Below, in pieces: positions 1,482 to 39,391 of a DNA stretch of 44,041 bases (position 1 is its first letter; each line of letters starts with the position of its first letter). The notes below the pieces were generated by a model. That model did not search any database, was not told the DNA's origin, and saw only the letters and a program-made list of their open reading frames with translations. A program made the translations under genes and the position numbers. The DNA lies in assembly GCA_003550305.1 (NCBI GenBank), contig QKYT01000079.1:213297-257337 (forward strand), written 5' to 3'. Source of the DNA: Glomus cerebriforme. Taxonomy: Eukaryota; Glomeromycota; Glomeromycetes; Glomerales; Glomeraceae.

Positions 1482-4144
1482 ATGTGGAATTTATTAAGAA
1501 TATCAAAAAATAAATGTGCAAAATGTGGTGGAATATATACAAATAAACAATATAAATGGTGCAAATCATGCCAATTAAAATATTTAAAAGAAAATTTTAA
1601 GAATTGGACTAGCGAAAATGAAAAAATCGATAGATTAATTCAAGCAATGCAATTAAAAATTGATGATCCGAACGATTTAATATTTGAATGGATACCTTAT
1701 AATCAGTTTAACATTAAAGAAAAAGGTAAAGACGGACTTGCTACAGTATATTTGGCTACGTGGAAGAATGGTCCGTTATATTGGAATAAAGAAGGATATG
1801 CAAGAGATTCAAATAGAACAGTTGTTTTAAAGTGTTTGGGTAACGCACAAAACGTAACTCTGAACGAGGTATGAAATATTTACTATGAATCAAATTTCTT
1901 ACCGAAAATTGTCAAGTTTATCCTTTTAACGTGATTTTTTTAAAAAAAATAGGATAAGGATCATTCAGTCAAGTGGTACATTGATCTTAAAATATACGGA
2001 ATGTCTCAAAATCCTGATACGAAAGAATATGTTTTGGTCCTTAATAATAAATATTTTGAAGAATATTTTAAAGGATACTGTGTAAAATGTAGTAAAATGT
2101 ATGAAAATACGCAACATAAATGGTGTAAACAATGTCAAATCGATCATTTTAAGAAAAAATTTATAAATTGGACCAGTGGAAATGAAGAAATCGATGCTTT
2201 AATTCAAGAAATGCAATTAAAGATTAATGATTATAGAGATATATTATTTGAATGGATACCTTATAATCAGTTCAATCAAGTTAATAATGTTGAAGGAATT
2301 GGAATGGGATTTTCCACAATAAAATCAGCAATATGGAAAGATGGTCCATTAAAGTATGACATAGATACAAAGAAATATGAAAGATGTCCGAATAAAGTAT
2401 TTACTTTGAAATGTTTGGATGGCTCACAAAATGCGATTAGCAAGGTTTTAAATGAGGTATGAAATTTCTTTTTGACTTTAAATTTTTTTTTTTTTTATAA
2501 TATAATAATTTTTTTTTTTAAAATATTTTTAACAGATCAAAAAATATTCAACAGATACTAACAGTAACGTTCTCAATATACATGGAATATCTCAAGATCC
2601 TGATACAAAAAATTATATTATAGTTTTTGAAAATGAATATTATGAAACATATTGTGAAAATTGTGGTAATATATATACAAATATGTATAAATGGTGTAAA
2701 CCATGTCAAATGGATTATTTAAAAGAAAATTTTACTAGTGAAAATAAACAAATTGATGATTTAATTCAGGAAATGCAATTAAAAATCAATAACCCAAAAG
2801 ATACAGTATTTGAATGGATTCCATACAATCAGTTTAGTGATATTAAAAAAGAAATAGATAATGGTTTCGTCACAGTATATTTAGCAAAATGGAAAAATGG
2901 TCCATTACATTGGAATAAAAGGAAGTGGACAAGAGGATTTGATAGTCCATATAATAAGGATAAAAAAGTTGCTTTAAAATGTTTTGACAAATCACTAGAT
3001 GTGACTAATGAATTCCTAAACAAGGTATAAATTTTCTTTATAAATTAAATGTTTTTTTTTAATAAAATAATGACTTTTTTTATCTTATCTTTTAATAGGT
3101 TAGGATATATTCAATTAATTATTTGGAATATAATATTAGAATCTATGGAATATCTCAAAATCCAGATACAAAAGATTATGTTTTGGTATTTGAAAATAAA
3201 TATTGTGAAAAATATTGTGTAGGTTGTGATAAAATATATAGTGATGGGTATAAATGGTGTAAAACATGTCAAGTAAATTATTTAAAGAACAAATTTACAA
3301 ACTTGAGTGGAGATGAAAAAATTGATGATTTAATTCAAGAAATGCAATTAAAAATCAATCACCCAACCGACATAGTATTTGAATGGATACAATACAATCA
3401 GTTTAATAAATTAAAAGAAATAGGAAAAGGAGATTTCGAAATAGTATATTCAGCAATATGGAAGGATGGTCCATTAAAGTATGATACAGATGCAAAGAAA
3501 TATGAAAGATATCCAAATAGAGTATTTGCTTTGAAATGTTTAAATAACTTACAAAATATAAATGATATAATTAGTAATAAGGTATTTAATTTCTTAATTC
3601 AAACACTACATTACAACATAACAGAACATAACAGATAATAATTGTTTTTAATGTTTTTTGATGGTTTAACACATAGGTTAAAGAATATTCGATAAATATT
3701 GATAGTAAAATTTTCAAAATATATGGAATAACTCAAAATCCGAACATGAAAGATTATATCATGGTTCTTGAGGATAAATATTGTGAAAAATATTGCAAAA
3801 AATGTTGTAAAGAATATACGGATATAAATTATAAATGGTGTAATAATTGTCAAATAATCAATTTTACAAACTGGAGTGGAAATGAAAAGGTTGATACTTT
3901 AATTAAAGAGATGCAATTAAAAATTGATCTTTATAAAGTATTTGAATGGATACCATATGATCAGTTTAATGATTTTAAAGAGATAGGGAAGGGTGGTTTT
4001 GCTACGGTATTTTCTGCATTATGGAAGAATGGTCCACTATATTATGATAAGAATAAGGAAAGATGGGCAAGAGAATCAGACAAGAAAGTTGCCTTAAAAT
4101 GCTTATTTAACTCGCAAAATATCACTGATGAATTTTTAAATAAG
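1482..4144 (+). repeat. Tandem cassette-exon array A (five units)
   Basis: Units are exons 1-5 of gene A (1482-1868, 1953-2456, 2536-3024, 3099-3581, 3677-4144), about 0.5 kb each with the intron. From unit 2 on, each exon starts with the alphaC/beta4/beta5 piece (IYGISQNPDTKDYI), runs directly into the ribbon, then through beta1-beta3. The duplicated unit is therefore exactly exon plus intron. Introns are 66-95 bp and most donors read gtatgaaattt. Divergence between units shows that these are not recent copies. Confidence 0.85.
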
Positions 4145-5080
4145 GTATGAAATTTCTTAATAAATTTAATTTATATAACCTTATTTTAATATTAATTTTT
4201 TTTTTTTTAGGTTAAAGCATATTCAATCAATAATTTTGATAGTTCTGATAGAATTCTTAAAATGTATGGGATAACTCAAAATCCATTTACAAAAGATTAT
4301 ATTATGGTTCTTCAATATGCAGAAGGTGGAAATTTTAATTATTGGATAAATAACAATAATAATTGCAAATATTTCAATTGGTTGATTAAATTGAAAGTAC
4401 TAGATAACACTATTAATGGTCTTAAAGAAATTCACCAAAAACAGTTGATTCATTGTGATTTTCATACAGGAAATATATTATTTAAAGAGATTTATTGGGT
4501 TTCTTCAAGTGCAAGTACATATATTTCAGATGTGGGATTTTCTGGAAATGTTTGTAATATCGATGAAACAAAAATTTATGGAGTTATGCCTTATGTAGCT
4601 CCTGAAGTATTGAGAGGAAAACCTTATACTCAAGCAGCAGATATATATAGTTTTGGTATGATTATGTATTTTGTAGCAACTGGAAGACAACCTTTTGCTA
4701 ATCGTGAACATGATCAACATTTAGCATTAGATATATGCAAAGGAATCAGGCCCGAAGTAAATGAGCTAGAAATACCTGAATGTTATATTGACTTAATGCA
4801 AAAATGTTGGGATTCAGATCCAGACAATAGACCAAATGCTACAGAAGTAAAAGAATTGATTAAATTATTTCATGATTCGTATTCTCCAACTGAAACAAAA
4901 CAGGATGATGATGAAATTGAGGAACAATTCAAAGAAGCAGAAAAATTTAGAAGAGCGAATAAAGATATCCTATTAACTGTTCACCCTCAAGCTATTTATA
5001 CATCCAGATTACTTAATCCTTTTATTGAAGTTCTTTCAAAATATATTGATGATGTTGAATGTTTATACCGTGAGATATAA
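1482..5080 (+). CDS. Kinase-like gene A: five zinc-ribbon/N-lobe cassette exons plus one catalytic C-lobe exon
   Basis: Six exons: 1482-1868, 1953-2456, 2536-3024, 3099-3581, 3677-4144, 4211-5080, giving 1066 residues. All five introns are GT-AG and phase 0. Exons 1-5 each encode a CxxC...CxxC ribbon (the second half reads KWCxxC), a helical link (IDDLIQEMQLKI), EWIPYNQF, a glycine loop and the beta3 lysine (ALKCL), and end inside helix alphaC (FLNE or FLNK). Exon 6 supplies alphaC to beta5, the catalytic loop HCDFHTGN (about residues 858-865), DVG in place of DFG (about 884), APE (about 907) and the C-lobe, then an acidic linker and the tail PQAIYTSRLLNPF. The family is protein kinase, TKL-like, probably Ser/Thr, as in the expanded Rhizophagus kinases; no substrate can be named. 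Glycine loops decay in exons 2 and 3 and are canonical (GKGGFATV) in exon 5. Whether all exons join in one transcript or are alternatives cannot be told from the DNA. The start is the first ATG in frame; no signal peptide is seen. Confidence 0.8.
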
Positions 5081-9634: not shown

Positions 9635-12600
9635 TTAAGCCTGATTGGTTAAGGGATCTGAAACTGTTGCCGTGCCGTTAACACTGTTAACACCACTATC
9701 ATTATTTATCCCATCCTTTTGTTCAGAATTACAATCAACATGTACAATATCACCATTTGGTTGTCTCATAAAATCTGATCCACTGATATACTTTTTACAA
9801 GTTGAACATAATACATTCTGATTTATTACAGTTGGTCCAATTTTTTGATATGCTTGATATAGTTCAAAACTTGTCTATAAAATAAAAAATTTGATATTAA
9901 TTATACATTGAAATTTTAAATAGTTCTCATTATAATAAAAAATTAAATTACCGTTGTGTTTTCGCCACGACACAATCCCTTTAGAACTTGTCCTTCCCTA
10001 TAATTATGGTAACCCTGTCTTAATGAACGAACCAGGAATTTGCTTAACATTTCGACTGACCAATATTCTGGTAATAACCCCATAACCTGCATAATATTAT
10101 CAAAAAATATTCAATGAATCATCTTTGCAAAACTTTTGTGCTATTATTAATTCTAACCAACCTCTGTGATATCTAAATACACTGCTTGTGCATTCAACAA
10201 ATTTATTATTTCTTCAACCATTTCACTCCTATATGTATATTTTCTTAGTATGTAAAATAATAATAATAATAATCGATATAAATAATAAATATTATATTTA
10301 CCCATTTTGTATTTCCAGATAAACTTTTAATAACATTAGAAATAAAGTCCGCCTTGTAGCAATCAAATTCTTATCATTATCCTCTATTAATTTTTTGTCA
10401 GACTGTTTTTTAGATGATGATTTACCGATCATTCGACCAGCATAAAAGCAATAAACTTCTGCTCCACGAAAATCTTTCAAATCATTAATCAATATACGTA
10501 AAGCTTTTTCATGTTCATTTAGCTTTATAAAAAATTAAAAGGATATTAGATATGAGAGTTACAACTATAATTAAAATTAAACTTAATTATGAATTAATTC
10601 ATACCTTTCCGTAAACAATTGCTAACTCAGCTTTCAACACTTGGATTTCAAGCAAACTATTTAAAACTACTTCTGCATTGTATCTTACTGAAGATTGTAA
10701 GTAATTTATTAATTTGGCTCGTTCATGTGATAATAAATCTTCCGTTGGTTGATCTAGTAAGAAGGACAAATATGTCTTCGAAAATTTCGAATCTTTCGAA
10801 CTTCTTATAAATTCATTTGCTATTATATAAAAATGATATCTTTATTAATTTTCCTCATGCTTATATAAATTTTATCAAATTCTAAACACTTACTTATTTC
10901 TTCAATCTTCGTTTTTACCTCATCTGATTGTAATTGGTTTTTAAATTCTTTAACATATAAGAGTGCTAGTTCCGTATGATGCTCGTCTTCGTGACTTTTT
11001 CTTTGTAAAACCAAGTATTCCAAATACATTTTAAGTCCTTTATTTCCAACCGATCTTAATTGATCCAAAACCAAATTGGATTCAATCAACAAAGGACGCC
11101 TTAAATTTGGTTGAATATACACCTAAATAATTCAAATTAAATATGAATTTATATTTATCAATCTTTTTAATCCAGATAAATTCATACCTTTGCTCCAATA
11201 ATTTCATCTTGTTTCACAACCCAACTTGCATATTCCAATATTAAATCATGGTCATCCAACATTCCAAGTATATTTGCCATTTGTTGTAAACCATTAGAAA
11301 CATCTTTATCTGAATTATCCTTTTCGAGAATCCTGCGTTTTAAATTTATAAATAAGCATAATTAAATCATTTAACTTTTATGAATATTATAAATATTAAC
11401 CGTTTCCATATTTCCAAGGCCTTTCTGTATTCTTTGCTGTCTTTATAAAGTAAAGACAATGGATAGTATTTCTAAACAAACAGACAATATATAAAAAATT
11501 AAAATTTAATAATGTAACCTGTACTCTAATATTAATTGTATTATATCTAACCTTGTTATCTAATAGAACTTTTTCACTAAGTTCTAACTCACATTCATTA
11601 GGATTTTCCAGTAAAATATTTAATTGCTGTTCTGATTCAGGTTTATCTGAACTAGCGTATAACCTAAGTAAAGCATTATCAACAGCCTACCAAATTCATT
11701 AAAAAATTATTTTAGGCTAATATATAAAATCAATTGAATTGATATTCACATCAATTTATATCTCTACCCTCAAAATATTTCTTTCATCTGGCTTCAAAGC
11801 TTTCCCTTTAACTACTCGCTGTTCACGATCTTTTGTTAGAAACTTTTGTAACATTTCTCTTGCGTTTGTAATAAGAACTTTACCAAGTCTTTGTGTAGCT
11901 TGTGCTGATTCGACATCGGGCTTAATATGAGGTTCATAATTTTTAACCAGATTACGTGATACTATACAAAAAAAAAAATTTTAAAAAAAGTCAATCTTTC
12001 GAATAAGTTTAATTATAATAAAACAGGTTCATATATACCAATATCCTCAATGCTACCGAGTTGTTTGACAACTGTTTTAACACCAGAATAAACAGTAAAA
12101 TCGTCATCATTTCTGATAATATCTTTCATTTCTCCAAATAATTGAATTAATAATCGAGGATCAGTTCTTCCTTCTTCAAAAAGCGGACAAGCCATATCAA
12201 AAAACGTCAATCCAAGATAAAGGAAGCCAGATTTTTGTTGAATATAATTGAACTCATGACGCTATAAAATATGACAATTATATGACAATTATAAATAAAT
12301 ATAAAATAGGGGACAAATAGTTATAATATCATCCAAATTCCGCGAAACTCACCATTCTCTCACTATGAATATTCTCTGGAGTTGCTGTTGTTATCATCTG
12401 TTTAGATAATTCTATAGCTTCCTCTACGCGGGAAGCATCAAGCATTGAATCAATCTTATTATTTAAAAAAAATTATTAAAAAATTATTATATAAAGCTAG
12501 AAATAAATATTTAGATAATATAATCTAACCTTAACAGTAAAAGGCGTTGCTGCTAAAGCAACAACTGATTCGCTCCCTGCAATTATGAGTCGAGTAGGAA

Positions 12601-14235
12601 CAGTTGCTAAAAAGCTGGATTGATTTCTTGATTCAGCCTTGCTATTATCTACACTTGAAGTATCATCATTATCGTCTTTATTCAATAAATATCCGCTTTC
12701 TAATTTTAACCTATCCATCAGCCCAGTGACCTGAACTTTAATACCAGGCCCAGTTGAAATTGTTCTTGATTTTGACGGAAGCTGTACACTTTGAACCTGT
12801 TTTTGTTCAAGTATATTGTGAACCTCTATCACATTATTACGCAACAATGCAACAACGTATGGAAATTCAACACCGATCGCTCTTGGGAAATTATTCCATT
12901 GCAATATTCCGCGAACAGGATCTCCTGTATACCTAATAAACTGTCCAATTGTCACCTGTAAGACAAAACAAACATTAAGGATATTTATAAAAATTATAAT
13001 TAAGTTCTCTCATCAATTTCATCAATTTGATGGTTATAATAGTATAAGTAAAGGATATGACCAGTATTAGCTGGTAAGGTCAACAAAAATTCTCCCTCTC
13101 CAATAACAGTAATTATAGGTTTAAACATGTCCCCATTAACAGGTGACTCATACGGAAATAAATTTTCCATCCGTTTAGCTGACAAATTAATCATCTTATA
13201 CTGACGTGCATCCGCAACACACACATAAGGCCCGTATTGACATGCCGTAATTGCACCATCTGGAACTTGCATAGACTGTTGAAATTTATATGATTGTTAA
13301 TTAAAATTTTCATCAATAAATTCATAGAATCATTATAGCTTACAGTCTCTTCGGCACATCTATCTGATGTCAACGAATAAATATGTAACATTCTTTTCTT
13401 CATTACACATATTCTTACTGTTCCATCTTGTTCAGTTTTTCCTTCTTTTGAAATATCATGACAAAAACATGTAACCCCTTTGATCAATGGAAAGGTTGCT
13501 GCCGGTAATGCAGTCATCTCAGGAAGCTCGTAAAAAGATAACGTTGAATCTAATTATTCCCAAATTTTATTAACATAATAATTTTTAAAGCAACATAATA
13601 ATTCAAGATTAAATCGCATTTTTACTTGCCACATAATATAACAGCAATTGTGATTTGAGGGAAAAGCATTATACGCTCAACAATCCTTTTCCCAAGAGTT
13701 TGTTTACTAATACGAAAGTTACTCGGCACGTTCTTTATTGAAATACATAAAAAATAAGATAAAATGAAAATGCAAAAAAAAATCATTCTTTATTGTTTAG
13801 TTTTATACATACATTGTCGGATGAAACTTGATCATCAATCCAATAATGAAATAAATGTCCATCTGAAGTGCCTAAATATAAATTATTTTCTGGCACAATA
13901 ATAGTATACAAGAAAAAAAATTACTTATCTGATGGTAAAGTTTATTTATTAAATAAATACTAATATTAAATTATTTATTTAAAAAAATCATTTCAGAGGA
14001 AAGAAAAGGCTAATATAAAACGCTATAATTCTACAATATTTCGCGTCAGGAACGTTGAAATATTTGTCAACTTACCCCACGCCTCAACTGACTCTATCGT
14101 AATTTGACTATCTTTATTCCCCCATCCTGCTCCAAACAATCTACTTCCGCTTCCAGAATTTTGAGAAGCATGTTGGCTATCTTCAAGGGGTAATGAATTA
14201 ATGAGAGTCTGTAAAGAAAAAGGTGGTAAAGTCAT
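9635..14235 (-). CDS. VPS3: Vps3 / TGFBRAP1-like CORVET tethering subunit
   Basis: Eighteen exons (14235-14076, 13889-13813, 13732-13630, 13549-13344, 13275-13059, 12957-12530, 12454-12353, 12261-12039, 11961-11768, 11686-11552, 11471-11401, 11332-11188, 11122-10894, 10819-10605, 10522-10302, 10228-10162, 10086-9952, 9874-9635) give 1055 residues, close to fungal Vps3. The N-terminal citron-homology (CNH) beta-propeller shows LYLGTSDGHLFHY, PYVCVADA and the strongly Vps3-like GDPVRGILQW and FPYVVALLRNNVIEVH. A helical clathrin-repeat-like solenoid follows. The C-terminus has the Vps39-type metal-binding segment CSTCKKYISGSDF...PNGDIVHVDC (residues about 999-1024). In the family, Vps3 is a CORVET subunit that binds Rab5-type GTPases in endosome fusion. 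Intron 3 appears to be GC-AG and intron 5 a U12-type AT-AC intron. The gene is divergent from gamma-SNAP with 207 bp between start codons. The Vam6/Vps39 paralogue is the main alternative; the GDPVRG motif favours Vps3. Confidence 0.88.
12958..13058 (-). other. U12-type AT-AC intron (VPS3 intron 5)
   Basis: On the minus strand the upstream exon ends ...AATACTGGTC and the intron opens ATATCCTTTA, the U12 AT-AC donor consensus. It contains TCCTTAAT (12981-12974), a near-perfect U12 branch site about 17 nt from the 3' end, and closes with TTAC before AGGTGACAATTGG. Joining C to AG gives CAG and keeps frame into VTIGQFIRYTGDPVRG. The only usable GT (ACTG|GTCATA) has the wrong phase for the available AG. 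Confidence 0.85.
13550..13629 (-). other. GC-AG intron (VPS3 intron 3)
   Basis: The donor is TTATGTG|GCAAGTAA and the acceptor ATAATTAG|ATTCAACG, both on the minus strand. This gives LCDSTLSFYELPE, the expected CNH strand. The nearby GT (GGCAA|GTAAAA) leads to a stop codon, so GC-AG is the only joining that works. GCAAGT is the classical GC donor. Confidence 0.85.
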
Positions 14236-14442
14236 TTGACAATTGTTGCAAAATTGTAAAATCGAAAGTAGAATAGATGATAAAAATTGATTGTTTAACT
14301 TGTTAAACGGTAAAAATCATGTGATTGAAGTTCTATTTTTAGTAAAATAACATCATCCGAAGCTCAATATTTAAAACTTTTCCTACAATATATTCATTCA
14401 TTCGCAATAATACTGTAAATCTGTATTTTTATTTTCTAAGCC
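14236..14442. promoter_or_regulatory. Bidirectional promoter region, VPS3 / gamma-SNAP
   Basis: Only 207 bp separate the start codons of two divergently transcribed genes, so the 5' leaders and both promoters must lie here or in the genes. No clear TATA box or known operator is recognisable. Confidence 0.6.
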
Positions 14443-26500: not shown

Positions 26501-29500
26501 CTCAAACTCTTGGTGCTTTCTTGACAAATGATAGTAAGGAATCAGTACAAATATCAAGTTTTACTATTGAAGGAAACTATCAATATTATAGTTTTGTTGA
26601 TCCTAATCATGTGGAGTCATTATCATTATATTTGAAGGTATGTATATTACCCCCCCCCGATTTAAATATGCATAAATATCAAAACGAATAAATTAATTAT
26701 TTTGATTTTTTAGGGAAAAGAAGTTAATCTAAAGCTTTTTGGATTCGTTATTAGATACTTCTTAATCCTTCAGATGAATTATTTTGGTAATTATATTAAT
26801 TTTATGACACTGGAGGAGTATCTTATTAAGCATGATCCGAAAAATGCAAAGAATAATCTATTATTACAAGAAGAAGTTGTGAAGGTAATTTTAATATAAT
26901 TTACCAATATGCAGATATATTCATATATATATATATATAATAATTTGATCATCTCATATTAATAATTTTTTTAGTCTCCTGCAGATCCTTTTGAAGTGTA
27001 TATGATATTAGTTATTGAAGATGGTACTTTAATATTACCTGAAAATTTATATAGTGCTGATAATTCTTCAACGGTACAATTTCATGAACTACAGGTAGAA
27101 TTAAGAAATCTTGATGTTTATATGGGTAAGTGGTTATTTATAATCATTTTATAATAAAATTTATGACCTGATAATTACTACAACAATAATTTTCATTATT
27201 TCCCATTTTTAGATATGGATGTTACTGTTAGTCCATTAATGTGGACACTTAGTTCAGATGCTAGTCTTAAAAAGAATTCAATCAAGCCAAAATCATCAAG
27301 AGATGATAATTATAATTATTTGTATATTGATGGTATATATTTCATCATTTGTTCATTTTTACTTACACAATGATAAATTTATTTATCAAAAAAAATTTTT
27401 TCTTTAGATTTGAATATTTATGCCCATAGATTGTTTGGTCCATTGCCTAAAACTGCAACATATGTTTGCAATTGGGATATAAATATTGGCACAATATCTG
27501 GACAGTTAAAACCATCATTTTTACTAAGTGTGACTTCATTTGCAAGAACATTTGCCCATCATTTTGTTGATAAAGAAAACGCGTTACCTACAAAGTATGT
27601 AATGCTCCCTGATCCAGATGTCACTTTTTTAACCGTTGATGTTCAAGAAGTTGACATATCAATATGGGGAGGAGGTAGCGTGACACAAATTATGCTTAAG
27701 GAGGGTTTAAGCGTTAAATTTGATGATTTAGCAAATGAAAAATATATTCTTAAAGTAATATTTAATTTACCGGATTTGACTATAAGAAGTTTAGCCAAGT
27801 CAGCTATGACTTTGGCATCAATTGGTTATTCAAAGGATGCTGAATATCATCCTTGGGTAGAAGTTGCAAGTTTTGAATCTGCTTTTAATATCACTTTATA
27901 TCGCACAACCTCTGGATGGCGTGAGAGACTTGAAAGTCAACAAGCATTTATAAAACACGAAGACCGAGAAACTAAAAGGATTCCATTCCTCTATGGAAGG
28001 GACCATAATCAAGATTTACTAGGATCTAATGGCAATCACTTTGGTTCTCTTTATACTCCACCAATGCCCCCACCATTACCAGGTATCCATTATTTAACCT
28101 TTATTTATCGAACCAGAAACATCGTTTAAAATTATATATTATTTTTAGATGACATGGATACCAGTTCCGTATTATATAACGAAAGTACAAATTCATCTAT
28201 GGTTGATCTTACTGCAAATAATAGCAGAAAAAATATGTTAGACTTTTTTAGTATAAATAGATTCGATTTCGATATTGATAATGATGATGACGATGATGAA
28301 AGCTGTATAAGAACTGATTGTGATAGGTTTGTCTCGACTTTAATTATTTTATTTCAAGAACATATTATGTAAATTTTTTCTTTATTTTTTTTTGTTTTAA
28401 AAAAAAAAATCTCTTTAGTACATCTATTACTGGATCTGGTGTCAGTGCGTCAAATGCCTCATTTGTAACTGCAAAAAGTGATGATTCTCAATACAGCGAT
28501 GAAAGCGACATTGATAATCTTCGTAATACTAATATTAAAATAAGTGGAGATTCTGATAGTGAATACGAGGAAAACGAATCAGATCATTCGCCTATTGCTG
28601 AACAAAATCCAATGTCCCCGCTAGCTCCACGATCTATCCCTTACGAAAGTTATTTGAAAAGATATCGATTAACTCATAAAAGACCCTTTGCTACCTCTTT
28701 TCCAAGCTCATTTCTTCGACCCTCTCGTATATTGTTTATTCCAGCTAGAGTATTCGTCATTTTTTCATTATTTCTCATTAGATTTATTTAAGTAATTTGC
28801 TCATACTTTTTTTTTTTAAAGGAAGAGGAAGCCTTGTCTCCTGATGATGAAAATAGTCAAAGCTATAAATCTTTCCCATTTACGAAGACAAAGAGTGCAA
28901 GCACCGAATCATTCAAGGATTTTCAACCTGAAGATGAAACATCATCTGCGAACAGCGATGTCGAAGAAAAATTAACAATAATTTTTGAAGCGGCAAAGTG
29001 CATCAAAATATCATTGACGCCAATTTTCTTAAAAATTGTTGAAGAATTTCTCGAAGCAATCATAGATAAGGTTACTGAAGATAATTTTTTAATTTTTTTT
29101 TTTTTATAAAAACTATCAATTTATATTCTAAAATTATGTTTAACTTATTCATTATAGAATTGGCATTTAGAAGCTATGCTTGATAAAATACAAATTGATT
29201 ATGTCGAAGAACTTACCAAATTGTTTCCATTTAAATATACAACCATAAGATTTGCTGCTTCAATTCCTCGTATACATCTTCATTTCATACAAGATGTCCT
29301 CCTTCCTGATGATTTAACTAATGTAAATGATGAACATCCTGGTGTTAGAACAAGATATGATTTGACAGATACCATTTTATGTGCAGCCGCAGACTTGATT
29401 TTAGATCAGACTCTTTTAACAGGCCTAATAAAATTTGAAGATAAAAAATTTGATAATAAGGATAAAACAAAAAATTTTCGTCCATCTTTAGAGTTGATTG

Positions 29501-32500
29501 AGTCTCGGGCCAATATTGATTTTGATACATTAAAGCTTAACGTTCGATTTGTAACTGGTTCGAATTCTATTGTTATCTTTGGAATTCCAGAACGTTTGCA
29601 TCATTTTAAAGAGTCCGGATTTATGTCTTCTGATACTTTAGATAATGAACCTGTTGTTTTGATTGTTGAACTAGAGCAGCTTAAGCTGAGGTGGATGGGA
29701 TGTATGGAACCCAATTATTTTTCTTTCGATATAGATAGAGTTGCTGGTATTTTTATAAGTCAATCTATAGAGATTTTGTTAGGTGGTATTTATTGGTGGT
29801 TAGTCTTTGCAGAAGATCTAGCAAATTTACTAAAGAAATTTCAAACGCATCGAACACGACAGCTACAAGTCTTAGTGTATGAAATCGCTAAATTCTCAGA
29901 AAAAACAACGAATGAAAATGATCCACCTTACTTAACGAGACCATCTCATGTTTTAAGATTAGGAACCAAAAATTTTAAAAATGATGATGGTTGGAAAATT
30001 CTTGGTCGTGTTAGACATTGTAAGACGTTAATGCAAACTGAACGAATTGATGAATTATATACCATATTGAATAATAGTGCTCACTTATTATCCATGGATC
30101 CAAATGAAATGTATGGACGGGTTTTAGGCGTTTTTTCGAAATGGAGGCATTGGGAAATGGAAAATTTATCCAATTGTCATTTATTTACGGACCTTTTTCA
30201 ACAACCAATTGACAAATCATCTATTAATGATATTAATGACATTTATCGATTCGTGACAATTTCAACGAATTTTGTTAAAATACGGATTGGAAATATCGCT
30301 TTATCTATCTGGGATGGACATAAAGAAAATTCAGTGGTTGTTTATCCTATTGAATTAGATTTGGAAACAAAATTTCATAAGGATAATTTGCCATCATCTG
30401 AAGTTACTCGAAGACACGTGGATTCAAATGCGAGTAATACAGAACAAGAAACTCCCCAGATTTTGAATTCATTATTTACTGGATATTTGGATGTAATATT
30501 AAGAATTGGAATAGACCAAATAGGCTTGGATGTAAATCCGGACATGCTTGCTTTTGCAAAGCATTGGCTCAAGGTTCACAGAGTATTCAGTTCAAAATTC
30601 CAATCTTTAAGCAAAGAACCTGTTATCCAATCTGAAGAAGTCATTCCTACTACAAAAATACATAAGCACAAGCAAACACCTACAATTACGAGTTTTCATG
30701 ATATAAAATTGTCAAAGAAGAAACGTAAAGACACTGTCACAGAATCAATTTCATCTGATCCAATAAAAGATTTGTCATCTCGTCTTAACATTTTTGCACA
30801 TGGAATTATTATTCTCAAAACTATCATTATCAAAGCATCAGCCCAAAATCTTATGGCACAAACTCAGTTATCAAATCTTAAAATTTCTAGTTGGTTTAAT
30901 AATCCTCAAATTTTGAATTCTAGTGATAAACTAGACTTAGAAAACGTGTCAATTAACAAAAGTCCGGGATCGAGGAGCAGTGGTGGCAAAGGATCAAATA
31001 GGTTGATCTTTTCAACTATTTTAGGTATTGAAAGTATATTGGCTAGTATTAGCCATTCTTCTGGAAACAATACCTTATTATCAATAGAATTCTCTAAAAT
31101 AAGTTCAGATGCATCACTTAGTTTATTAGCTATCGGGCGACCAAAGAGTAAGATTGAAATTGAACCACGTAAAGTGTTAAGCATTTTATTGACACTTGAA
31201 GAAATATCTGTAAAATTACCACAGAGTCTTTTAAAATTATATAATTTTGTTGAAGAATGGAGGGCTGAAAATCTATCAAGTTATGACTTTTTATATAAAA
31301 CATTATTAGATGAATTGGAAGAGCAACGAAAATCAACACCAAAATCTACTCATCCTGGCACTCGTGAAATTCGTACATTAACAGAAAAGAATTTACGAAA
31401 TTCTTTGGAAATAAAATTTCAATTCTTGATGAAAAAATTTTCGATTCAAACTCATATGTTGCCATCTTTAAGATTTCATTACGATGCATGGGATTTATTC
31501 ATAATTTTAGAAAAAAGTACATCAGCTCTTGGTGATAATTTGATTAATTACTCTGGACAACTATCAAAACAAGTTATTCATTTTGTTACGCGACAAAAAC
31601 ATAAAAATAAATCCGAGAAATCCAACGATGATGAAACTGATGACCGTCATCAAAAAGGTGCTTTTACTATTCCAGCGATAAGGGCAACTGGTAATATTAA
31701 GTCTTGTGAACCTCGAAAATCTGGCGTGTCTAGCAAAAAAACGGCAATTCATTCCGCTAATTCAGTTGCACCTTCTAAGTATTCAAAACTTGAATCTTCA
31801 GTGACATTAGATTTTGTTAAATTAAATTTGAATGTAAATATTATTGATAATTTGTTGACAGCACATTCAACTCTCGGAAGCGAATTAAATGATATACTAG
31901 ATGTGTTTTTGTTTTCATCTAGAAAACTTAAGGAACGCGGTGATGCTTCAAAAGAGAAATCATCTGTTTCATCTAAAGATAACGATACATTATTTTACAA
32001 TCTTAAAATATCTTTAATAGGTCTTAGAATATCAGCAATGAGTCCAAATGCTGTCGGGTTTTTTGAGACAAATATTCTTAATGGTCTTATTACGAATGTT
32101 TCTTCGATAGGCTTTGAGAAGTCTCCAAAGGTTCAATGGAAATTTTCAGCACAGAATTTTTCTTTATCATTAAATCATAAAACTGGAATCATGAGCCAAG
32201 CAGACACTGATGATGATATTCGTAAATATCGAATTGCTTATATAATGATTGATTTAGCACTACAAAATTTTAAAAATCAACAAGAAAATTCTGACTCTAT
32301 CAGTAAATCTGAAGAAGATGATGAATCTATTGAGTCTTATTTCCTTAAGTTATTAAAAGTTCATGCTGTAATGCAACCAATTGCACTTGGTCGTTTAATG
32401 GATTTATACGTTTACTATAGTGGCGAATTAGAGCGTAGGAAGAAGATGAAAGCGTCCGATATTGATAAATTAACCGCTAATACGCAAAGAATATTAAATT

Positions 32501-35500
32501 CACTTGATGTTGAGATGCCTAAATATAAATCGAAGAGTAAATCATTTTTAGATGAGAAGGTGTTATCACTTGACATAACAAGATTTGCCATTGCACTTCC
32601 TCTTGATTTACACGACGATCTAATATCTACATCTGCACAACATTTATATGAGCATTCTCAAATTCCTGCATTCCTTTTTTCAATTTCTTCGATGAATTTC
32701 CGGACAAGAAAATTGAAATCTAACTGTGCGATTCTCAAGGATTTAAGCCTTCAATTTGTTACTCAGTTTGATCAGGGAAATGAAGATCATTTTTCATCTT
32801 ATTTTCATCCTAATATGAATAGAATATTCGTTCCTGAAATTTCTTGTGAAGGACAAACTACTGGTACAATAGATAAGAAAAAGATTTATGTTGAATCAAG
32901 AGTAGAAGGTTTTAGAGTAGATGTTGGAGGAAATATTGTTAATCATATAAATAGTCTTAGTGAGATTTATGCTGCAAGTCGAGAAAGATTAGAAACTTTC
33001 ACCACCGAGACTAATTTTAATATTGGATCTCAATCTCAATCGCAAAAACCTTCAAATAATGAAGAATTAAATGATGATTCAGGCTCTCCTAATATTGTTG
33101 AGCTTGAAATAGAGGCTACGTTTACAGCTAAAAGTGGTACGATAAAATTGTATCCTAAAAATTATTTCACAAAACATCATAATAGAAGACCAACAGAAAC
33201 TAAAGATCGTTCAAAATCAGCGCGTGGTTCTCGTGGAAGCATTGTATCTATTACTCTTCCTCGTCTTAATTTAGATGGACTTCCTAATTATGCTCCTACG
33301 AGTTTAGATGATTTAACAAGACAAGGAGAACATGGTGTAGATAATATAATAATACCAGGTCTTAGTTTGAATACTTTTTACCGTACAATAATTGGACAGA
33401 GAGTTGTACCTTCTCCCGATGCATTAACAAAAAGAGTTCATGTTGAACTTATAATTCATCCAAGTGAAAATATACTTTACCCATCCCTGGTGCCATTTTT
33501 CAAAGATATTATTGACGGTCTAAAGATTGGTGTTCAACGGTCTAGTGATAAAAAAGCAATTGCAGTTCAAGAAAGTTCATCGCCAATTCAAGGAGTTAAT
33601 TTTACATGTTATTTCAGACTTTCACGTACCACCTTTGACCTTAGTTGTCAGCCTGCTTCTAAAGTTGCTTGTTCTCTAAAATGGGAAGAAGGAAATTTTC
33701 TTATTTCATTTAATGCTGCAGAAGAAGCAGTTCAAAGTATAACATGCGTTGGAAAGATTAGAGGTGCATCTGGAAATATCCGTCATGCATTTTCTCCTGA
33801 AGATTGTGTTAGAGCTGAAACCAAAAATATCTCATTCAATGTAACTTTAATGAGTAGGAGAACGGAGAGCGTTTCTGATGATTCTATTTCTATTATCGTT
33901 GAATTACCACAAATTACAGCGGAATTAAACATTCGTCACCTTCAAGATTTGTTACTTTTAAAAACCATTTGGATAGATCAAGCTACGAAATTATACGAAG
34001 TTAGTGGTTTGAGTTCTCAACAATCTTCTCGACCTGTAAGCGGTGAATATTTTAATGGAGATAAAGCATCCTTATCTTCATCCTCATCGTTACGTTCTGT
34101 AACTTCATTTTCGGAAGATGAAACAAAAGTCAAACCTTATTCTGTATACATAATGGTTAGATTGAATCAACTAGATTTATCCTGTGATTTAGGTCAGGCT
34201 ATAGGAAAAGTTCAATTCAATACTAAAAATATTCAAGTTCGTACAAAAAATGTTCCAGGAGTGTTGAAAACAGCCACTGCTACTACAGATTGTCTTGGTA
34301 TTAAATGCGAAGGTCGTCTTGCTGGTTCCGCTAATATGAAAGGACTTACATTTACAACAATTTTAGGAATTCCTCCAAAGTCAGAATCCGATGGTTCGAT
34401 TTGCGTAACGAATTTATTGTTCAAGACTGAAAGAATTCAATCTTTTTTGGAATATGAATATCAAAAAATTTTGGTATTAGAAGTTGATCCAATCCAATTT
34501 AAACTAACAGACTGTTGGAAAATTATATCACCCGAAAAAGCATCTGTTTTAATACACGCGAATGTCTCTGTTAAGCGTATTCAAGCAATAGTTGCTATTA
34601 AGACGATACCAAGCTTTCTTCATATGACGAATAAACTTTTAGCTTTAGTAGAAGAAAAAAGAATTTCTGCATCTAACGTAATTTTAAATTCTAATCGATC
34701 ACCTTATTTAATTCCAAATTCTCAATCACAAACAAATACGACACCACCAATGGAACCTAATAAACTTTCACCACAAGAAACAAGTAATTCTCCTTCTTAC
34801 AAGGAATTATTAATTGGTGGATTGTTAGTTCATCCGGTAGGAAAAATAACGATAGCTATGGAGAAAGTATATTTAACTATTTTTCCAAATCATTTCTACG
34901 ATACCGATTGTGTTCAGACAAGATTTGATGGACTTCTTATAGATTTGGAAAGATCAATCGAAGAAGGAGGTCGGGTTAATAGGAAACTTGATATGCAGCT
35001 TAACGGTATTGCACTGTTAAAAAGTAACTGCAGAAAATTAAATCATAAAAATGAATCGCTAACGTTCCAGAATTGGTTTGATCATGTTGAAAATTCTTCT
35101 TCAAAGAACATTTTTACTCTTCCGAGTACACATTTAATAATGGATACCGCACAAGGTATTGGAAGTAATATTGTGGATCATAAATTTTATGTTGACTTTA
35201 GAGGAAAAGTTGATGTAGCCTTAAATTTTGGGTTAATTAGATATCTTCAAGAATTGAGAGCATTATACAAAGAACAATTAAGAAAGAATATAGTCGGTGC
35301 AGCTGATATTCCAATTGTGTCTCCAAGTTCATCACCTGTTGATTATTTTAAATCTAATCCTTTGATACAAGTCCAGCAACCTACTTCACCAGTATTATCT
35401 GGTTCACCAACGAAAGAAACAAAAGTAGTTCAGTCAAGTGAGAATGAAGATTCGAAAGAAGTAAAAATGAAAGATGCTATAATTTTTAATCCAGTTGAAC

Positions 35501-35679
35501 CAGTAAAATTAGAGCCACAACTAAGAATTCTAGGAGATGCCACACCTCCATTAGAATGGGTCGGTGTTCAAAGAGCTAAAATTCCAGGATTTGTTCATAC
35601 AGCAATCACAATGAATTTAGATGAAATTATAAACAAAATTACTAATGAATCATTTAAGGCAGCCCAAACATTATTATAA
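23501..35679 (+). CDS. CSF1: Csf1 / BLTP1 (Tweek, KIAA1109) bridge-like lipid transfer protein
   Basis: Twenty-two exons (23501-23514, 23596-23738, 23881-24051, 24132-24290, 24372-24550, 24617-24729, 24810-24923, 24998-25113, 25188-25329, 25392-25551, 25626-25859, 25946-26219, 26296-26393, 26464-26637, 26714-26884, 26975-27125, 27213-27332, 27408-28082, 28149-28326, 28419-28749, 28822-29070, 29158-35679) give 3495 residues. An N-terminal membrane anchor (about 8-32) is followed by IRVYTWRKYHAYIEIESLQFAPLAGRILFKNL, typical of Csf1, then GVQLDYGPWADRQR and KLFGFVIRYFLILQMNYFG. The rest is long, beta-rich and without a catalytic motif. The family forms a rod-like hydrophobic groove that moves phospholipids from the ER to other membranes at contact sites. 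Seven-eighths of the introns lie in the first half; the last exon is 6.5 kb. Intron 7 is a U12-type AT-AC intron and intron 6 probably GC-AG. The exon 6/7 junction is the weakest part of the model. Confidence 0.9.
24730..24809 (+). other. Possible GC-AG intron (CSF1 intron 6)
   Basis: The frame before it runs into TAA at about 24743. The best in-frame solution is donor CTTCCAGG|GCATGC and acceptor TACATAAG|GTTAAC, phase 2, giving ENILPGLTRKEGFLSK. No GT donor in this stretch keeps the frame without adding an unusual micro-exon. The donor is a weak GC match. Confidence 0.45.
24924..24997 (+). other. U12-type AT-AC intron (CSF1 intron 7)
   Basis: The exon ends ...GGTCTTCCTAG and the intron opens ATATCCTTTT, the U12 AT-AC donor. 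TCTTTAAT (24980-24987) is a one-mismatch U12 branch site about 12 nt from the end, and the intron closes TTCACAC before ATATCGGGCGGATG. The join AG plus A keeps frame (GLPRYRADDELNN). No GT-AG pair exists in the interval that would do this. Confidence 0.87.
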
Positions 35680-36357
35680 AATTTTTTTAATAATAATTTA
35701 AATAGATTAACTAATAACATAATAAAATGTTATATACTTTTATTACTTTGTAGTGAATTTCGTTATTGATTACATTAATAGAATATGATAGAATATTATA
35801 GAATAATTACATTATTTGATAAATATACTGTTTACATAATGGAAAATCGTCGTACGTATAATTTACTTCAGCGCAGAATAAAACTATTAGATCATTTATT
35901 TTAAAAAATTTTTTAAAATAGAAAAATATCACTAACACATTTGTAATGTTAATAATGAAAGAAAAATCTTACTTCATTGTCTTAATTTATTAAATTTTTA
36001 TTAACAGTTAATGTAAACAATGAATTAATAAATATTTTTTTTTTTTAAAAAAAAAAAAATAAGCATCAATGCATCATAAATTAACGTATTATTCTTGTCT
36101 TCTTGACATCCTTTAACAATTTCAATAGACTAACACCATTAACACCATTAATATTTATCACTTATTATTGGAACATACGAGATAAATATTTACGTTCTGA
36201 TAACAAATTAATTAATATTATTCTCAGTTGCACAAATTTTGTACGACAAATCGGTGTTTAAATCGATTTTGTTTATTAATTTAATTAATCTAAAAAACTT
36301 TCATTTGTATCAAGTCTGCTGACTTTGCTCTTACTAACCTTTAAGATTTAGCATTTT
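35680..36357. other. Spacer between CSF1 and kinase-like gene B
   Basis: AT-rich sequence with poly-T and poly-A runs near 36031-36059. It presumably contains the CSF1 polyadenylation region and the promoter of gene B. No other feature seen. Confidence 0.6.
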
Positions 36358-38479
36358 ATGGAACTGAAAATTTTAATAATCATTTTAGTTGCATTCAGTG
36401 CGCTTGAATTTGGCATCTTGGCTTTACTTCTTAGTATTGGGAAATTAGGACAATGTACAAAGTGTTTACAGTATTCACAGTATTTGGGCTATTCATGGTG
36501 GTGTAAATCATGTCAACTAAATAATTTAAAAAAAAATTTTACAAATTGGACTAGTGGGAATGAAAAAATCGATTATTTAATTCAATCAATACAATTACAA
36601 ATTATTAACTATAAAGATATAATATTTGAATGGATACCATACAATCAACTTATTAATATTAAAGAAGAAATAGAAAAAAATGATTTTTCAACAGAATATT
36701 CAGCAAAATGGAAGGGTGGTCCATTAAATTATGATTTAGAGAAAAAGGGATATATAAGAAATTCAGATAAAACAGTTACATTAAAATGTCTTGGTAATTC
36801 AATAAATATTACTGAAATCTGGCTAAATAAGGTATGAAATTTCTTTAACGTTAATTTTAATGTATAAAATAATTTTTTATTTTGATTTAATAAAAAATTT
36901 TTTTTTTTACTTTGTGTTTTGTAGATTTTAAATAAATATTCAGTAAAGAGATATGGTATTCCTAAAATATATGGAATATCTCAAAATCCAAGTACAGAAG
37001 AATATATAATGATTCTTGAAAATAAATCTTTTGAAAAATATTGTGTGGAATGTATTGAGATATACACAGATATACAGTATAAATGGTGTAACCCGTGTCA
37101 AATAAATTATTTGAAGAAAAATTTTACAAATTGGACTAGTGAGAATGAAAGAATTGATTATATAATACAAAATTTGCAATTAGAAATTAGTAAACCAAGT
37201 GATATAGTATTTGAATGGATATCATATAACCAATTTTATAATATTAGAGAAATATATAAGGATGATTTTGCTACAGTATATTCTGCGGAATGGAAGGATG
37301 GTCCATTAATTTATGATAATGATAAAAAGAAATGGAGAAGAGAATCAGAAAAAAAAGTTGCTTTAAAATGTTTACATAACTCAAAAAATATTACTAATGA
37401 ATTTTTGAATGAGGTATGAAAGTTCTTTATAAATTTAAATACTTTTATTTTAATCATTAATAATAACTAATTTTTTTTTCGCATTTTAATAGGTCAAAAA
37501 ATACTTACAGTCCGAAAATAAAACGTACGGAATATCTCAAAATCCATATACAAAAGATTATATAATGGTTTTTCATAATAAATATTTTGAAATATACTGT
37601 GGAAATTGCGATAAAACATTTACAAATATACAAAATAAATGGTGTAACCCGTGTCAAGTAAATTATTTTAAGGAAAGGTTTACAAATTGGACCAGTGGAA
37701 ATGAAGAAATTGATAATCTAATTCAAAAAATTAGTAAACCGAGTGATATAATATTGGAATGGATATCATACGACCAATTTAATGATGTTAAAGAAATATG
37801 CAAAGGTAGTTTTGTTACTATATATTCTGCGGTATGGAAGGATGGTCCATTAAATTATGATAATGATAAAAAGATATTGAAAAGAGAATCAGATAAGAAA
37901 GTTGTTTTGAAATATTTACATAACTCACAAAATATTTTCATTAAATGTTTAAATGTAGTAAGAAATTTTCGTTTTAAAATTTAAAATGTTTTTATTTGAT
38001 TAATAATAACTTTTTTTTTCGTATTTTAATAGATTGAAAAATACTCGCGGTCTGAAAATAATATATATGGAATATCTCAAAATCCAGATACAAAAGATTA
38101 CATTATAGTTCTTTATCATAAATTTTCTGAAGAATATTTTAAAGAATATTATATAAAATATGATAAAATACACAAACATAAAAAAATTTTAACAAATTGG
38201 ATTAGTGGGAATGAAAAAGTTGATGATTTAATTCAAGAAATGCAATTGAAAATCAATTCTCCAGATGATATAATATTTGAATGGATACCATACAATCAGT
38301 TTAGTGATGTTGAAAAAATAGGCAAAGGTGGTTTTGCTACAGTATATTCAGCAATATGGAAGGATGGTCCATTATATTATAAAAAGAATAAAGAGAAATG
38401 GGCAAGAGCATCTAGTAAAGCAGTTGCTTTAAAATGTTTAGACAACTCGCAAAATATTACCGGTGCATTTCTAAACGAG
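36358..38479 (+). repeat. Tandem cassette-exon array B (four units)
   Basis: Units are exons 1-4 of gene B. The ends of introns 2 and 3 are nearly identical (ttttttttcg(c/t)attttaatag) and the starts of exons 3 and 4 match closely, so exons 3 and 4 or their introns derive from a fairly recent duplication. Introns are 93, 79, 75 and 67 bp. Confidence 0.82.
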
Positions 38480-39391
38480 GTATGAAATTTCTTTATAATT
38501 TTATTCAAGTTATATATATATATAATAATTATTTTTTTTTTCTTAGATTAAAGCATATTCAATTAATAATTTCGATAAAATTTTACAAATATATGGAATA
38601 TCTCAAAATCCGGATACAAAAGAGTATATAATGGTTCTTCAATATGCAGAAGGTAGAAATTTTAATTATTGGTTAAACAATAATATCAAATATTAATTAA
38701 ATTGAAAGTGTTGAGTAATATTATCAATGGCCTTAAAGAAATTCATCAAAAACAGATGGTTCATCGTGATTTTCACATAGGAAATATATTATTTGAGGAG
38801 ATACTTTTATTTACTTCAAATTACATTTCAGATATGGGATTATGTGGAGAAATTGGAAATATAGATGAAACGAATATTTATGGAGTTATACCATATGTAG
38901 CTCCTGAAGTATTAAGAGGAAAACCTTATACTCAAGCAGCAGATATATACAGTTTTGGCATGATTATGTATTTTGTAGCAACTGGAAATCAACCTTTTTC
39001 TGATCGTGCTCATGATGAAATTTTAGTATTAGATATATGTGAGGGAGTTAGACCTGAATTAGAAGAGACAGAAGCGCCTAAATGTTATATTGACTTGATG
39101 GAAAAATGTTGGGATTCAAATCCAGTCAATAGATTAAATGCTACTAAAATAGAAGAGTTAATTAAATTATTTTATAATTCATATTGTTCAAAAGAAATAA
39201 AGCAAGATGATAATGAAATCGAAAAACAATTCAAAGAAGCAGAAAAATATAGAAGTACAAATCAAAATAGAAATAACAAATCAACTATTCATCCACAAGC
39301 TATTTATACATCTCGATTACTTAATCCCTTTACAAAAGATCTTCCAGAATATATTGATGATAAATCTGATTGTTTGGATTGTGCAATATAA
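36358..39391 (+). pseudogene. Kinase-like gene B: cassette-exon array with a frameshifted catalytic lobe
   Basis: Paralogue of gene A. Exons are 36358-36831, 36925-37413, 37493-37957, 38033-38479 and 38547-39391, all GT-AG with phase-0 introns. Exon 1 starts with a hydrophobic segment (about residues 4-28, signal anchor) that gene A lacks, then a CxxC...CxxC ribbon and an N-lobe. Exons 2 and 3 repeat the unit; exon 4 has the unit without its ribbon cysteines but with perfect GKGGFATVYSAIW and VALKCL. The last exon would carry HRDFHIGN, DMG, APE and the PQAIYTSRLLNPF tail. A net 10-nt deletion relative to gene A near 38691 brings TAA at 38694-38696, giving 674 residues without a C-lobe. The C-lobe frame stays open from 38702 to 39391, so decay is recent, an assembly error is possible, or a 56-nt intron (38653-38708, gtagaa...aaag) restores the frame to an 887-residue product. 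Confidence 0.72.

Follow-up and report, generated by a model that had tools for sequence, protein, structure and literature searches.

We analysed a 44,041-nucleotide (nt) stretch of the Glomus cerebriforme genome (contig QKYT01000079.1, positions 213,297 to 257,337; this whole stretch is called the window below) and found at its positions 1482-5080 a six-exon gene whose five cassettes, each made of a putative zinc ribbon and the N-terminal lobe (N-lobe) of a protein kinase, are probably spliced in series. Judged from the sequence, the product would be a protein of about 1066 residues with one predicted kinase and with upstream N-lobes that probably serve as docking or regulatory beads. The pre-mRNA would be spliced constitutively across its short introns, and the resulting row of ribbon/N-lobe beads would end in a TKL-type kinase. 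An upstream cassette and the opening segment of the exon after it are predicted to fold jointly as a complete N-lobe, and only the last N-lobe is predicted to form a working kinase with the single C-terminal lobe (C-lobe). We read the upstream beads as binding modules because the fold and the ribbon are kept while the ATP pocket is mostly lost. Through their N-lobe and ribbon surfaces they could bind partner proteins, other kinases via N-lobe contacts, or the C-lobe of the same chain.

Anatomy of the gene

The six exons are open, and the five introns (GT..AG, phase 0, 66-95 nt) all fall at one point in helix alphaC (Table 1). Joined serially, exons 1-6 give a product of 1066 amino acids (aa), and the start methionine of exon 1 has the same position in the orthologues P0003 and P0007 from two Rhizophagus species. 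The open exons and the splice sites confirm the array, the common intron position and the serial product proposed in the original prediction, which had been made from the letters of the window. Each of the first five exons had been described there as a ribbon followed by the beta1-beta3/alphaC half of a kinase; this description stands, but it is incomplete, as exons 2-5 also open with the second half of the previous N-lobe. The intron splits each N-lobe in such a way that exon n contains the ribbon, beta1-beta3 and the start of alphaC, while exon n+1 opens with the end of alphaC, beta4 and beta5 of N-lobe n and then proceeds to the next ribbon. Since the halves are divided between neighbouring exons, serial joining yields five complete N-lobes, the last of them fused to the C-lobe.

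The catalytic lobe is located in exon 6 only, as had been claimed: the sole Pfam match to a protein kinase domain lies there (2.3e-31, profile positions 54-258), and the lobe carries the HCD, DVG and APE motifs that identify it as a homolog of TKL-type C-lobes. In exons 1-5 no Pfam match reaches a curated cut-off. For the ribbon the NOB1 Zn-ribbon scores best (exon 2, E 0.005, below its cut-off), and with Pfam ribbon matches below cut-off the four-cysteine pattern identifies the ribbon as a putative one.

Table 1. Exons and introns of the N-lobe array gene, with the catalytic residues of its five cassettes (positions are those of the window)
Feature	Positions	Strand	Content
Exon 1	1482..1868	+	start Met, Zn-ribbon-like CxxC..CxxC, linker helices, beta1-beta3 and start of alphaC of N-lobe 1
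Intron 1	1869..1952	+	84 nt, phase 0
Exon 2	1953..2456	+	alphaC end and beta4-beta5 of N-lobe 1; ribbon, beta1-beta3 and alphaC start of N-lobe 2
Intron 2	2457..2535	+	79 nt, phase 0
Exon 3	2536..3024	+	second half of N-lobe 2; ribbon and first half of N-lobe 3
Intron 3	3025..3098	+	74 nt, phase 0
Exon 4	3099..3581	+	second half of N-lobe 3; ribbon and first half of N-lobe 4
Intron 4	3582..3676	+	95 nt, phase 0
Exon 5	3677..4144	+	second half of N-lobe 4; ribbon and first half of N-lobe 5
Intron 5	4145..4210	+	66 nt, phase 0
Exon 6	4211..5080	+	second half of N-lobe 5; only C-lobe (HCD..N, DVG, APE); tail, stop
Cassette 1			loop KGKDGLATV; beta3 Lys; alphaC Glu
Cassette 2			loop EGIGMGFSTI, Gly-rich but shifted, contains GxG; alphaC Glu
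Cassette 3			loop EIDNGFVTV, without GxG; alphaC Lys
Cassette 4			loop GKGDFEIV, GxG present here, absent from both orthologues; alphaC Lys
Cassette 5			loop GKGGFATV, sole family-canonical loop of the gene; beta3 Lys present; Lys replaces alphaC Glu

ATP-binding residues depend on the position in the array

Exon 5 was used as a query on the same 112.5-Mb genome, where 150 places were scored out of 1855 first-look candidates. The window and 27 loci were annotated, which gave 131 cassettes in 33 arrays; these loci are the best matches and chosen surrounding regions, and the sample is not random. The motif counts in this genome use 110 of the 131 cassettes (non-partial cassettes from arrays with a C-lobe), and 8 of the 107 first, internal and last cassettes were then dropped because of a gap or a missing donor at the motif column. 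The complete set of ATP-binding residues, that is GxG (positions 107 and 109), the beta3 Lys and the alphaC Glu, is present in 20 of 24 last cassettes, in 4 of 52 internal cassettes and in none of the 23 at the first position. Of 98 cassettes from these three positions, 96 retain all four ribbon cysteines; W94, W119, G122 and L143 are conserved in every cassette class, and the upstream cassettes have the features of a kinase N-lobe fold. Conservation is lost upstream most of all at the Ala of VALK and at loop positions 109, 110 and 107. The last cassette has the top catalytic score in all 24 arrays that have two or more full cassettes (5 ties), and none of 20,000 within-array shuffles reached the observed totals.

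Among 120 public proteins the four-residue set is found in 75 of 87 last cassettes versus 5 of 308 others. This count is restricted to 395 of 657 cassettes because the end of alphaC is often unaligned, and single-column and alignment-free counts were therefore added. The loop Gly at position 109 alone is present in 90 of 90 last cassettes of the 120 proteins versus 37 of 529 others. A second set of 120 proteins from the same species group gave 51 of 67 last cassettes versus 2 of 49. Both public sets contain several strains and close paralogues, so that their p-values overstate independence and the within-array shuffle is the safer test. Counted alignment-free across the loop region, GxG shows a less marked contrast: in this genome 23 of the 25 last cassettes have it, as do 14 of the 58 internal ones and none of the 24 at the first position, and in the first public set it is seen in 77 of 90 last cassettes versus 23 of 564 others. 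The loop is near-canonical in 21 one-cassette proteins (classified by cut-off; several have partial cassettes upstream).

Orthologues in Rhizophagus

The orthologues of the window gene are P0003 from Rhizophagus irregularis (1056 aa, 70% identity over 99%) and P0007 from R. clarus (1034 aa, 66% over 97%). Both align with it exon by exon, at 65-77% per exon, and share its five cassettes in unchanged order. Cassettes of the same number are the closest between species (61-72% versus 44-60% for other cassettes), and even odd features are common to all three species, namely the EIDNGF loop of cassette 3 and the residue preceding the intron, which is Glu for introns 1-2 and Lys for introns 3-5. The cassettes have thus kept separate identities across three species, which is a poor fit to interchangeable parts. 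GxG is lost from cassette 4 of both orthologues, which has Ile at the position of the beta3 Lys, a residue present in all five cassettes of the window gene, and their last cassette has Ser at the first loop Gly.

From kinase alignments, we take the position before the intron to be that of the alphaC Glu. The last cassette has Lys at this position in all three species, so the replacement is long-standing there, and for the same reason the activity of the window gene's own kinase is uncertain on the basis of its sequence.

A public protein of 267 aa (P0181, source jgi, 84,250-base contig) has a C-lobe 80% identical to that of the window gene over 63% of the query. It is closer to the window's C-lobe than the C-lobe exon of the R. 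irregularis orthologue is (77%).

The family of arrays

A C-lobe exon stands at the 3' end of 28 of the 33 arrays, three of which have a single cassette and one of which has eight. Among the remaining five, L027, L024 and L051 are truncated at the end of a locus or at a gap, L030 shows only the start of the C-lobe exon and L034 is a lone cassette. The grouping into arrays closes at each C-lobe, and the protein set serves as an independent check on it: by the cut-off, 92 of the 120 public proteins have a C-lobe, none has two, no cassette follows a C-lobe, and the proteins with a C-lobe contain 4-11 cassettes each. The HRD Asp is present in 27 of the 28 C-lobes of this genome, and so is the DFG Asp. 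The DFG motif itself reads DMG in 23 of the 28, a family-wide change beside the ATP site.

The exon-intron layout is far from chance because the same module recurs across the genome. In 123 of the 131 cassettes an in-phase donor is reached without a stop directly after the alphaC residue, mostly with the sequence GTATGA behind GAG or AAG. At 112 of 113 tested junctions the expected place allows a donor and an acceptor in phase 0, a result that shows their existence and not their use, given that a phase-0 solution was what the test sought. With a median length of 75.5 nt, the family introns are short; 109 of the 112 do not exceed 120 nt.

The closest public proteins come from R. irregularis, R. 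clarus, R. diaphanus and G. cerebriforme; prokaryote genomes and viral contigs, each scanned once with a single protein, contained no relative.

No C-lobe was found by the cut-off in 28 of the 120 public proteins, some of which carry Pfam kinase labels. P0011, P0025, P0043 and others are gene models with 12-14 N-lobe cassettes, no C-lobe by the cut-off and often unaligned ribbon columns. A class of proteins lacking the C-lobe was considered and dropped: eight printed ends stop in the middle of a cassette, just after a cassette or in non-cassette sequence. We do not claim such a class because these eight ends look truncated and some of the 28 proteins only failed the cut-off.

The array L051 (C699:88500-91500) runs into a scaffold gap. 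A frame of 9042 aa at this locus was considered as an intronless array and rejected, as the run of N is the scaffold gap.

Serial splicing or a choice of cassettes

The original prediction favoured mutually exclusive or combinatorial splicing, in which a single N-lobe out of five joins the common C-lobe and kinases with different ATP lobes result; the serial poly-N-lobe protein was named there as the other outcome, and it is this outcome that we hold to be the likely one. All five donors are indeed in frame with exon 6, the introns share phase 0 and position, and GxG with the beta3 Lys remains in cassettes 2 and 4. However, the five cassettes joined in this way would differ in their catalytic residues. 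Alternatives for one C-lobe should all keep the residues that bind ATP, and they do not, so interchangeable lobes are unsupported: the genome and the public proteins alike mostly lack the ATP loop upstream, its residues are reliably kept only beside the C-lobe, and one-cassette proteins retain a near-canonical loop. The exons are therefore not functionally equivalent as members of a mutually exclusive cluster would be, since their catalytic residues depend on array position. Additionally, the order and the residues of the cassettes are fixed between species, and the orthologous gene models contain all five cassettes and not one per transcript. A splice from the first donor straight to the C-lobe would have to bridge 603-3935 nt, against the short introns of the family. 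A query with the exon 1-exon 6 product found no protein of similar size at about 70% full-length identity among the best 120 of 1380 matches. Taken together, a choice between cassettes appears very improbable.

Variation in the number of beads would be a milder form of alternative splicing, in which the junction between the last cassette and the C-lobe is constant and the upstream exons are skipped freely, so that the protein has from one to five N-lobes. Every internal exon is symmetric, and skipping any of them keeps both the frame and complete N-lobes; optional skipping is thus possible, which counts against strictly serial splicing. However, no skipping is seen in the data examined, all five cassettes are present in the annotated orthologues, and splicing by intron definition, which is usual for short introns in fungi, favours full inclusion. 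We consider free skipping unlikely. A 394-aa piece of P0003 used as a query found no near-identical fragment among the best 120 of 380 matches. The public protein P0234 (446 aa, 1437-nt contig, source 'lgn') comes from a one-cassette gene and reads through the alphaC junction in one open frame, which is suggestive of a spliced transcript whose origin is unstated.

Selection and origin of the arrays

The dN/dS ratios come from a simple counting procedure applied to AT-rich sequence, with each cassette paired with its best match in another array (at least 50% identity, dS below 1.2; reciprocal pairs counted twice). The medians are 0.50 for first (n=13), 0.45 for internal (n=26) and 0.34 for last cassettes (n=21); one internal pair exceeds 1, and as single pairs vary, the sign of the medians alone is safe. 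One could argue from the higher upstream ratios, and from the broken C-lobe exon in a second array of the window, that the upstream cassettes are relics, i.e. drifting and unused exon duplicates, with only exons 5-6 or a late start being functional. Yet the four ribbon cysteines, W94, W119 and L143 are nearly invariant upstream, the splice sites are in place with an in-phase donor reached without a stop in nearly all cassettes, as counted above, and the orthologues have kept all five cassettes. Even the first cassette of the window gene differs from its paralogue by dN 0.186 and dS 0.929. It is thus very unlikely that the upstream cassettes are relics.

In a tree of the cassettes, 19 of 39 terminal pairs come from one array, and several last cassettes have the neighbouring upstream cassette as their sister. 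The arrays may therefore have grown by local tandem duplication of an exon with its intron, often within the array, after which the upstream copy would tend, repeatedly, to lose its ATP pocket. The same pairs would also be expected if the cassettes served as a sequence reservoir that recombines, or undergoes gene conversion, with an expressed last cassette. This we regard as extremely improbable, because the cassettes of the window gene kept separate identities through three species and the last and single cassettes cluster in the tree beyond shuffled labels (12 changes versus a mean of 24.6 and a minimum of 19).

Several observations weigh against serial beads that are devoid of ATP binding. 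GxG is also found in cassettes 2 and 4 of the window gene; by itself it survives in the 14 internal cassettes counted above without alignment, and by that count the last cassette is its sole carrier in just 12 of 24 arrays. The full motif is kept in the four internal cassettes given above, and 72 of the 82 upstream cassettes from this genome retain the beta3 Lys, so some upstream nucleotide binding is possible. The window gene itself departs from the family rule at alphaC, with Lys in all three orthologues, the higher upstream dN/dS is compatible with relaxed constraint, and the orthologous serial proteins are known as gene models. Because of GxG in cassettes 2 and 4 and of the retained beta3 Lys, the loss of the ATP site upstream is, at the level of residues, a strong tendency and not a rule for each cassette.

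Relation to known systems

Kinases are usually viewed as one two-lobed domain. The solved relatives matched by our gene belong to the TKL group (RAF, TAK1, RIPK, MLK and Roco4), from which the family differs in its mostly DMG motif, and to our knowledge none of these kinases carries N-lobe repeats. The serial protein is similar to the pseudokinase-kinase tandems, such as JAK JH2-JH1 and plant tandem kinases, in that a degenerate kinase fold is placed upstream of an active one in the same chain. In contrast to them, here the repeat consists of the N-lobe alone, in several copies that each carry a ribbon and lack a C-lobe. The top Foldseek row is a JAK chain, with a TM of only 0.24. Tandem duplicated and phase-compatible exons are also found in Dscam, where they are mutually exclusive, and in human genes (PMC9741552); the cassettes of the window differ from these in being functionally unequal and in having inner exons that hold halves of two neighbouring domains. 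The plan of a pseudo-domain and a kinase is known, whereas a repeat unit of half a domain appears to be new.

The expansion of kinases in R. irregularis is well known (PMC10234402, PMC6123716, PMC8647823): the excerpted parts of these papers report 2,533 kinases (PMC10234402) and PF07714 as the commonest motif among inflated genes (PMC6123716). The genus hosts the orthologues of the window gene, and repeated half kinase domains are not described in those parts. Likewise, among the titles and abstract openings of the open-licence literature we recognised no paper on repeated kinase N-lobes. Proteins of the family are already in public databases, often as kinase-domain proteins.

Copying the ATP lobe alone and repeatedly, with frequent loss of the nucleotide pocket, would represent a novel route to a pseudokinase regulator. 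The share of such arrays among the 'kinase' genes of arbuscular mycorrhizal fungi may be large, and in them the Pfam kinase domain would cover the last part only. The function of the expanded family would thereby become testable bead by bead. A more tentative reading, which we put forward as a possibility of lesser weight, is that in Rhizophagus the half-domain repeat presents 4-11 (perhaps 14) ribbon-bearing N-lobes, mostly devoid of the ATP pocket, as multivalent decoys that compete with or gather the N-lobe partners of one C-terminal kinase, and thereby tunes signalling in a large and fast-changing family of root symbionts.

Neighbouring arrays and other genes of the window

A sister array of six cassettes (L031, C928:189727-193848, minus strand) lies on the same contig about 19 kb before the start of the window, in opposite orientation. 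It is a duplicated sister of the window gene, as the first, second and last cassettes of the two pair in the cassette tree. Its C-lobe has HCN in place of HRD.

The second array in the window (36352-39391, plus strand) has four cassettes and a C-lobe exon, and its first exon starts with a hydrophobic stretch. Its last cassette has lost the ribbon cysteines and keeps GKGGFATV, the Lys and the Glu. Its C-lobe exon looks broken at about 38684, where the matches to the C-lobe change from one frame to a second.

The plus strand of the window also contains, at 27377-35679, exons of a Csf1-like gene with one frame of 2173 aa, presumably a bridge-type lipid transfer protein. On the minus strand, an apparent gene of many short exons extends over about 9650-14250 and includes a weak match to the CNH domain at 12500-13006 (E 0.0004, below cut-off).
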